64,000 nucleotides of DNA from Sphingomonas sp. LT1P40 (lineage in GTDB: Bacteria > Pseudomonadota > Alphaproteobacteria > Sphingomonadales > Sphingomonadaceae). The notes below the pieces were generated by a model that ran no database searches, was not told the origin of the DNA, and saw only the letters and a program-made list of their open reading frames with translations. A program made the position numbers and the translations under genes. Positions 4,325 to 58,459 of the stretch are shown one piece after another. The first letter of the stretch is position 1. Every line of letters begins with the position of its first letter. Location: assembly GCF_036663835.1 (NCBI RefSeq), contig NZ_JAXOJT010000002.1, positions 620,001 through 684,000 on the forward strand. Direction: 5' to 3'.

Positions 4325-4459
4325 CTACGTCGACTGCTCTGTGCTGCCACTTTGTTGTAGTCGGGTTAGGTCCGCAAGGTCGTTAGCGACACTCGCGTCT
4401 TCTTCTTCCGCAGTCCAAATCGACCGCCGACCAAACCCACTGGTAATGTTGGATTTCAT
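4325..4459 (-). CDS. Small hydrophilic protein (44 aa), possible
   Basis: Reverse-strand frame from ATG 4459 with AGGA about eight bases upstream. It encodes an acidic, polar peptide with no membrane helix (an AEEEDASVANDLADL segment in the middle). It sits directly upstream of the small membrane protein gene and could be its partner. It could also be a chance frame; the main support is the matching orientation and tight spacing. Confidence 0.35.
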   Translation of the reverse strand: MKSNITSGFGRRSIWTAEEEDASVANDLADLTRLQQSGSTEQST

Positions 4460-4514
4460 CTGATCTATCCTGATCGATGAACCGCCGCTCGCACCACCCT
4501 ATTCCCACACCCCG

Positions 4515-4714
4515 CCGCGTCGATGGCGCATATATCGCGCGTCAGTGCCGCAAACCCGTCGCTTCGGTGTCGCGCCGCTGTAGCCCCTCTGTCGCGTCAG
4601 CGGCGCGCGCGTGTCGCGTCACTGTCGCGCAACAGTCGCGTCGCAGGCGCAAAGCTGTCGTTTCACCGTCGCTTCCGCCAAAAACCCTGCCAAACCGTCA
4701 ACCGCGTCAACCGG
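4515..4714 (+). repeat. 11-bp degenerate tandem array A with conserved tail
   Basis: Fifteen consecutive 11-base units run from 4515 to 4679. Most read [T/C/G]CGCGTCnnTG; examples are TCGCGTCACTG, TCGCGCAACAG and TCGCTTCGGTG. The period holds even where individual units diverge. The array ends in a short A-rich spacer and a tail at 4691-4714 that begins CAAACCGTCAACCGCG. A second array with the same unit and nearly the same tail lies at 57339-57550 on the other strand. The 11-base period is not a codon multiple, so a protein-coding origin is unlikely. This array lies between the small-ORF pair and the 3' end of rlmE. Confidence 0.75.
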
Positions 4715-57338: not shown

Positions 57339-57550
57339 GGCGGTTGATGCGTTGACGGTTTGAGCGGTGCTGCGGGTGGAAGCGGCGGCTATGCGGCAGG
57401 TTCGGGCCGGGAACGCGGCAGCGACGCGGCCTCCATGCGCCATCCACGTCACAGCGACGCGGCACCGACGCTGCATGAGCGCGCGGTTTCGCAGCAGGAC
57501 TGCGCCAGGTACGCGGCACGCACGCCTCATCGACGCGGCGATGGCGCGGC
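57339..57550 (-). repeat. 11-bp degenerate tandem array B with conserved tail
   Basis: Read on the reverse strand, about 17 units of 11 bases run from 57550 down to 57366. The clearest are GCCGCGTCGCT (twice exactly) and GCCGCGTnnnn variants; two 10-base steps break the phase. The tail at 57362-57339 begins CAAACCGTCAACGCATCAAC, closely matching array A at 4515-4714 (one base missing, one changed). Array B begins inside the 3' end of an HTH gene on the same strand. Confidence 0.75.
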
Positions 57551-57808
57551 GGGCGCCAGCGGATCGGGGCCGAGCGGATCGGCGAGCCGGCGGGCATGGA
57601 CCGACAGCACCTGATCCCAACTGCGATCGAACGGCGTGCCGATCAGGCGATGGCGTAATCGCTGCGCGCTCGACCGCGACATCCCCGCCGCGTGCGCGGC
57701 CCGCCCGACACTGCCGGTTTCCAACAGGGCAGCAAGGAAGATGCGCTGTTTGGCGGGGGTCCAAATTGCGCGGCGCGGCGCGGCGGTGAGGGGGGCGGGC
57801 GAGGTCAT
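57527..57808 (-). CDS. Small helix-turn-helix protein running into array B
   Basis: 93 residues. The centre reads WTPAKQRIFLAALLETGSVG then RAAHAAGMSRSSAQRLRHRL, a homeodomain-like or resolvase-type HTH. The C-terminal tail (Pro/Ala-rich) is encoded partly by the first units of array B, so the repeats shaped its end. The ribosome binding site is weak. Similar HTH genes are frequent in sphingomonads; a link to the repeats is a hypothesis. Confidence 0.65.
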   Translation of the reverse strand: MTSPAPLTAAPRRAIWTPAKQRIFLAALLETGSVGRAAHAAGMSRSSAQRLRHRLIGTPFDRSWDQVLSVHARRLADPLGPDPLAPAAPSPRR

Positions 57809-57937
57809 CCGTCAGGATGAAGCATCCCGTTTCCAACATGTATCCAACAATCGGCGGACGATGGCGATTTGACGAAGGCGCGACGTTCAAGGAACGCTTG
57901 GCCGTGCCGATCGATGTGCCGGCAGGGAGAATGAGCG

Positions 57938-58459
57938 ATGGCGCAAACTGCCGAACGCACCAACCCGCGATTGTGGGAAGAAGTGAAGGCCGAAGTGATC
58001 GCCGGCGACAAGGGCGGCAAGCCCGGCCAATGGTCGGCACGCAAGGCGCAGATGGCCGTCGCCGAATATAAAAGGCGCGGCGGCGACTATGAGGAGAGCG
58101 GCCTGGCGCAGGACGAAACCGACCTGCATCAATGGACTCAGGCGAAATGGGGCACGGCATCGGGCGCGGACAGTGGCAAGAGCGGCGAACGCTATCTGCC
58201 GCGGGACATCCGCATGCTGCTGACCGATGCCGAATACGCTCGCAGCACCGCGAAGAAGCGGGCGGACGGCGCGAAGGGCAAGCAGTTCAGCACGCAGCCC
58301 AAGGACGTGCGCGACAAGATCGCCCGGATCAGGCGCGACGGACCGACCAAGGCGATGCTGGTCGAGCGGGCCACGGAACTGGGGATCGAAGGGCGAGCCG
58401 GGATGGACAAGGCGGCATTGCTGGCGGCGATCGACGCGGCGGTGGATCGCGGACGCTAG
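57938..58459 (+). CDS. DUF5872-like DNA-associated protein
   Basis: 173 residues. The N-terminus (NPRLWEEVKAEVIAGDKGGK then PGQWSARKAQMAVAEYKRRG) matches what I know of DUF5872; a basic centre (AKKRADGAKGKQF) follows and the C-terminus looks like a SAP/Rho-N helical motif (KAMLVERATELGIEGRAGMD). GGGAGA lies seven bases before the ATG. DNA or RNA binding is likely but not shown. Converges with the next gene by one base. Confidence 0.7.
   Translation: MAQTAERTNPRLWEEVKAEVIAGDKGGKPGQWSARKAQMAVAEYKRRGGDYEESGLAQDETDLHQWTQAKWGTASGADSGKSGERYLPRDIRMLLTDAEYARSTAKKRADGAKGKQFSTQPKDVRDKIARIRRDGPTKAMLVERATELGIEGRAGMDKAALLAAIDAAVDRGR

Follow-up and report, generated by a model that had tools for sequence, protein, structure and literature searches.

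In this study, a 64,000-nucleotide stretch of the genome of Sphingomonas sp. LT1P40 (contig NZ_JAXOJT010000002.1, positions 620,001 to 684,000; in the following termed the window, with position 1 as its first letter) was analyzed with respect to two tandem arrays of 11-base units. Both belong to a Sphingomonas repeat element, of which they form the 3′ portion, and most array copies are not accompanied by a gene. A complete element consists of a promoter-like head with a fixed start codon, a gene for a helix-turn-helix (HTH) protein of a type termed S here, an array beginning at the stop codon, and a tail. In the window, element 2 is such a complete copy and element 1 has a head, an array and a tail but no gene. 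Good support was obtained for the repeat family, for its anatomy and for its linkage to a single clade of HTH proteins.

For the detection of the arrays, sequence identity at a lag of 11 bases was determined over 165 bases. It reached 0.545 at array 1 (window start 4504) and 0.558 at array 2 (57381), while the third-highest value in the window was 0.394 and 100 first-order Markov simulations of 64 kb gave 0.448 at most. Therefore, the tandem arrays at 11-base spacing described in a first-pass annotation of this DNA are real; its number of fifteen units had to be corrected to 16 in each array. Both arrays share the opening CCGCGTCGATG. The near-identical tail that had been noted at both arrays was retained in the form of a longer gapped pattern, which occurs at two places in the whole 3.47 Mb genome, exactly the two tails of the window. 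The tail pattern was matched in 13 of 149 genomes of the taxonomic family, including the present one. The 16-base tail string on its own did not hold: with up to 3 mismatches 1.25 chance matches are expected in the window and the tail of array 2 is not matched. Being no better than chance, this string was rejected as a key to the family. A loose scan of genome contigs returned at least 112 stretches from many phyla.

Element 1 is located on the plus strand. Its promoter-like head (4441 to 4479, CTGGTAATGTTGGATTTCATCTGATCTATCCTGATCGATG), a conserved part 70 bases 5′ of the array which the first reading had not covered, was detected by motif searches and ends in an ATG at offset 32 (4477 to 4479); its 35-base motif was found once, and not at all in 100 shuffles. 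It is followed by a stretch that, by comparison with complete elements, is devoid of the HTH coding part (4480 to 4514), by array 1 with 16 units of 11 bases and the core G-N-CGC (4515 to 4690), and by a tail with the direct repeats GTCAA-N4-GTCAA (4691 to 4713). Element 2 is located on the minus strand. Its diverged head (57809 to 57840) was missed by both pattern searches for head motifs and was recognized by eye, with the start codon likewise at offset 32. The HTH gene, also new compared to the first reading, encodes 93 amino acids (57527 to 57808) and its TGA stop codon lies inside the first array unit; array 2 runs from 57538 down to 57364 with 16 units including one of 10 bases, and the tail follows at 57341 to 57363.

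The distribution of the element was analyzed by two methods. BLAST of array 1 gave matches in 20 of 61 genomes of the same genus, among them the present one (8 places); several of these genomes had only a single short match (E 0.001 to 0.009). A sequence-only profile of the last units and the tail, built from 19 sequences and termed R1, returned 51 rows in the present genome at E ≤ 1 and 21 rows at E ≤ 1e-3, the latter corresponding to 15 distinct places by our own grouping. At E ≤ 1e-3, R1 matched 28 of 199 genomes including the present one. Twenty-seven of these are Sphingomonas, eight of them with one match only (E 3e-5 or weaker), and the remaining genome, from another family, has one weak match. 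The earlier suggestion of an element family in sphingomonads is thereby borne out. In a protein tree of rlmE from 29 genomes, array-rich genomes were found in several clades with array-poor ones interspersed. Plasmid and phage records contained no arrays detectable by blastn. In Rfam searches, the arrays of the window matched no family, the only matches being a TPP riboswitch (RF00059, 63027 to 63135, minus strand) and a tRNA elsewhere in the window, and 20 head loci of relatives gave no match at E ≤ 1. Among the papers listed by searches of an open-access library, none was found to describe the repeat family, which does not establish its absence from print. The 87 array loci tabulated below comprise 85 selected from the stronger BLAST and R1 matches and the two arrays of the window.

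Scoring of 46 loci with a profile of the short type (S) and a general profile separated two groups: S-type proteins are short HTH proteins scoring at least 125 bits against the S profile, and the other proteins stayed below 60 bits; under the rule of the scoring script, L390 (38.7 bits, without array) would also class as S. In a genome-wide HTH search of nine genomes that made no use of the arrays, an array was present 3′ of 7/7 S-type genes and of 0/31 other rows, two pairs of rows being repeats of one gene or open reading frame (ORF). The family profile gave 38 rows in the nine genomes, including a window row at 57578 to 57793 (minus strand) directly 5′ of array 2. Lag-11 values were at most 0.43 for the 30 of 31 other rows that were measured, compared to 0.53 to 0.70 for array-followed genes. 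L399, which like L390 belongs to the 31, had no profile match and reached 0.49 in a shorter window, in which array-followed loci reached 0.62 to 0.65. Conversely, eight of the 87 array loci were found to have an HTH gene 5′ of the array in the orientation of the element, and no locus had one in reverse orientation. In a tree of 32 HTH proteins, for which 6 of 38 loci were left out (four repeats of the same sequence, two without match), the array-followed proteins formed one clade with a support of 98/94 (9/9 inside versus 0/23 outside), eight of these nine having been found via their arrays. Gene and array also tend to occur in the same genomes: G000 and G173 have two S-type genes each and G177, G192 and G238 one each, with 17, 15, 19, 17 and 23 R1 matches in G000, G173, G177, G192 and G238, respectively. 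The HTH-family profile search found no S-type gene in G203, G204, G219 and G091. The last three are not among the 28 genomes matched by R1, G091 having one 22-base BLAST match (E 0.009); G203, with two R1 matches, is the exception.

The HTH proteins resemble the small subunit of phage terminases (TerS). The window protein matched PHROG 4044 (terminase small subunit) with E 1.8e-5. For L267 of G204, where a 311-residue HTH gene starts exactly at head offset 32 and a tail-like repeat follows just 3′ of the gene, the same PHROG was matched with E 1.2e-23. Pfam gave no family above its cut-off for the HTH protein, the weak rows of the window protein comprising five HTH families and Terminase_2 and no Y1 transposase. 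At E ≤ 1e-3, 228 homologues of the window protein were obtained; among the 120 of them listed, the window's own aside, identity was 62 to 89% over the aligned part and length 81 to 132 residues, and some carried the pipeline annotation LysR-type, AraC-like or terminase small subunit. From these similarities, we take the ORF to belong to a genuine gene family. AlphaFold predicted a helical HTH (mean pLDDT 82), whose structural matches to terminase DNA-binding domains were weak and level with unrelated folds; a sequence search of the PDB with the family profile gave two rows (E 0.15 and 0.34). A PHROG scan of nine neighboring proteins detected no terminase and no recognizable prophage: eight had no match, and the protein of 57938 to 58456 matched two PHROGs of unknown function. 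By tblastn, which detects close relatives only, viral contigs contained no relative of the window protein.

Further observations concern longer TerS-like genes without arrays. In L374, L385-L387 and L392, short direct repeats were seen by eye soon 3′ of the stop codon, so the tail may be general to the TerS-like gene family. L387 and L393 are the same TerS-like gene near both ends of the 3.93 Mb contig 1 of G173, which is a terminal duplication or an assembly overlap.

The copies without a gene retain probable traces of the complete element. When read from the start codon of the head, 27 of 32 loci have no stop before the array ends, compared to 14 and 19 for the other frames; the +1 frame is frequently terminated immediately by ATGA, and 21/32 are open to the array start. 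In the gene-less locus L299, the N-terminus matches S-type proteins at 9 of 11 residues and then runs into the array. Over 29 loci the effect is modest, the best N-terminal match averaging 4.28 of 11 residues versus 3.69 for shuffled peptides (p 0.002) and versus 3.76 (p 0.04) and 3.83 (p 0.10) for the other frames. We read the open head frame as a relic of the lost gene. Since most heads before arrays keep a start codon and an open frame, and L299 also an N-terminus resembling S-type proteins, element 1, whose ATG at 4477 is followed by 35 bases and then by the array, is most readily explained as a copy from which the HTH part has been deleted. The array itself as a coding repeat was rejected in spite of apparently striking overlaps with a downstream start codon, because its frame with respect to the tail varies between loci and orthologues disagree.

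Based on this anatomy, the S-type protein is proposed to bind its own array, because one unit per helical turn would present one contact per turn on one DNA face; binding could take place as a multimer or filament. Gene-less copies would be further landing strips acted on in trans, and the protein, once bound, could wrap DNA, prevent transcription at the ends of genes or control the promoter of the element itself. For phages, passages of PMC9611059 locate pac of P22 within terS and treat the way in which terminase HTHs read DNA as an open question, and passages of PMC4737164 describe for SPP1 pac direct repeats that extend over the promoters and the start of terS, with the HTHs displayed in a ring. 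The element shares with these systems (P22, SPP1/SF6), as far as these passages describe them, an HTH protein of the TerS kind (PHROG 4044) and a repeat-bearing site adjoining its own gene. It differs from them by its chromosomal location without a terminase among the scanned neighbors, an apparently HTH-only protein, many dispersed gene-less copies and the strict 11-base array. From this comparison, we regard the chances as evenly balanced that the array is the S-type protein's own DNA site, like pac beside terS, with gene-less copies as dispersed sites. We put forward somewhat more tentatively, at a little under even confidence, that a phage terminase-small-subunit family has been domesticated together with its own array and has seeded gene-less copies as non-packaging, dispersed and helically phased landing strips.

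A different reading, possible though rather unlikely, is a family of miniature elements whose ends drive their spread, the HTH protein aiding mobility or being a passenger and the array being an internal minisatellite without a binding function. Similar ends do enclose different contents, namely the HTH gene, a boxA-like leader or the array. An array 3′ of rlmE, which matches Pfam FtsJ, was found in G000 only and at none of 28 orthologues in relatives; these are no clean empty sites, because their downstream gene order differs. One site shared between species varies in the type of head and in the number of units (6 versus 17). On the other side, 16 groups of loci have a flanking gene common to several species according to our grouping of protein clusters. 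From the shared flanks, together with the rlmE array in G000 only and the variable site, gain, loss or replacement of elements seems to occur; mobility as such is suggested by the one rlmE locus (array in 1/29 genomes). The linked gene had no transposase match, and transposases elsewhere were not searched.

Conservation within the unit also argues against a decaying minisatellite. In 1042 units of 79 arrays (eight arrays exceeding 25 units were left out), 922 of 963 steps were exactly 11 bases, and positions 1, 3, 4 and 5, forming the G-N-CGC core, were conserved at about 90% versus 38 to 63% for the others. These figures are inflated, as the unit finder is built on the core and a step of 11; the array finder allows steps of 10, 11, 12 and 22 only, which favors 11, and at several loci it extended too far, into the coding part of the HTH gene. 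Orthologous arrays were compared as well. In four 17-unit arrays 5′ of a putative thiD, pairwise mismatches amounted to 48/384 in the core and 164/672 elsewhere, or by column to 18/68 and 48/119 (p 0.059). A second set had 7/144 and 48/252 mismatches, and a third one of two sequences showed no difference (6/32 and 10/56).

Two motifs were found about 70 bases 5′ of arrays, AATGTTGGATTTC..CTG (first, type 1) and CTTTCCTAC (second), both of which we read as putative promoters. Heads were sought only 5′ of arrays, and among the 87 loci 44 had the first motif, 19 the second and 24 neither. A shorter first-type motif with up to 3 mismatches occurred at 18 places in the present genome and at none in the reversed control. 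With up to one mismatch, the first motif was found in 18 of 120 genomes, 14 being Sphingomonas with up to 22 copies each, and some genomes of the genus had it without any array match; the one or two sites each in the four genomes from other families are probably due to chance. Of 30 HTH-family locus rows, 20 had the second motif upstream (up to one mismatch, within 500 bases), a number for which the chance rate was not measured. It lay directly 5′ of HTH genes in L277, L281 and L283 and once 5′ of a DUF6456 gene. For type A heads located before arrays, the offset of the start codon was 31 or 32 in 30/32 cases (12 of 44 heads were dropped by the rule sorting types A and B), and the gene start was at offset 32 in the array 2 locus (W2), L163, L374 and L397.

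Several related motifs were seen by inspection. ACTTTCCTAC with a TA-containing box about 15 bases further on is found upstream of HTH-family genes (L276-L284, L375-L403) and of the DUF6456 gene, and by eye also of a DinB-like gene named from its translation; it may represent a promoter class or a regulon within the genus. Heads without array, followed by a GC-rich stretch and the boxA-like GCTCTTTGA, occur in L256-L272 (G204, G219, G188) and in L195, L239-L241 and L243 of G000. They are a second element class, with the exception of L267, which has the HTH gene. Many array-less head elements terminate with a pair of direct repeats, for example TGTCACCTTAG TGTCACCTTCC, and GCGAACATTGGGAACATTCGC or a close variant, resembling a regulator site, is present inside head elements of G204 and G219 (L257, L259, L260, L265, L268-L270).

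With the head as promoter, the array could be a transcribed leader or 3′ UTR (untranslated region) controlling termination, or a noncoding RNA. The upstream gene is co-directional in 65/84 loci (p 5e-7 if independent), and in six genomes the tail of the array is directly followed by a gene read as thiD from its translation. Of the 44 loci with a type 1 head, 10 had GCTCTTTGA, which we take to be similar to boxA, in the region separating head and array (up to one mismatch), about 0.002 being expected per 90 bases; a 16S search of the present assembly, carried out for comparison with the rRNA leader, gave no match. Orthologous loci are not independent, which makes the p values too small, and gene directions were taken from our codon-usage caller, which misses small genes. 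The downstream gene, co-directional in 52/87 loci, is convergent in 35/87, and some downstream genes seemingly have their own TTGACA promoter 3′ of the tail, as judged by eye. A hairpin 5′ of boxA was only slightly favored (mean z −0.56, n = 34). Folding of four array strands was not clearly better than that of shuffles (z −1.5 to +1.7, the best case equaled by 10 of 200 shuffles) and thus did not support an RNA structure of the arrays. Altogether, we consider a function on the RNA level improbable.

Two further alternatives are weaker still. OmpR/PhoB-type response regulators bind 11-base direct repeats, and besides this period the two-unit tail TGTCACCTTAG TGTCACCTTCC of a relative, which presumably resembles a Pho box, was counted for tandem half-sites of such a regulator; this is very unlikely, as the array-linked gene encodes an HTH protein and no response regulator (regulators elsewhere were not searched) and arrays of 6 to 25 units exceed the operators of these proteins. 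A neutral slippage satellite, to which a simple tandem repeat with variable copy number would correspond, is hardly credible given the conserved head and tail, the uneven conservation within the unit and the linkage to one protein clade.

Other known systems show partial similarity. REP/REPIN sequences with RAYT (TnpA-REP) are likewise, as excerpts of the literature describe them, dispersed intergenic repeats with a few chromosomal genes for a related protein, but the unit found here is not palindromic, its array strands fold about like shuffles, and the linked protein has HTH matches and no Y1 (HUH) transposase match. Plasmid partition sites such as parC of R1 (parC/ParR) have 11-base direct repeats adjoining the gene of a DNA-binding protein, as predicted here; in contrast, the present arrays occur at about 15 chromosomal places and their protein is an HTH and not a ribbon-helix-helix protein (partition motor genes were not searched). 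With CRISPR loci, the element has in common a leader followed by a tandem array, with a boxA-like motif at some loci. The first-pass annotation rightly kept the arrays apart from CRISPR, the 11-base units being contiguous without spacers (cas genes were not searched).

As the repeat family is tied to one protein clade, its function is directly testable. The results also suggest that a terminase-like family includes some of the proteins to which pipelines have given the label 'LysR family transcriptional regulator' or 'AraC-like'. Should the arrays indeed be bound by the HTH protein, a DNA-recognition module of phage packaging would have been turned into a chromosomal system, and the arrays would provide a natural, long and phased substrate for the question, raised in passages of PMC9611059, of how terminase HTHs read DNA.
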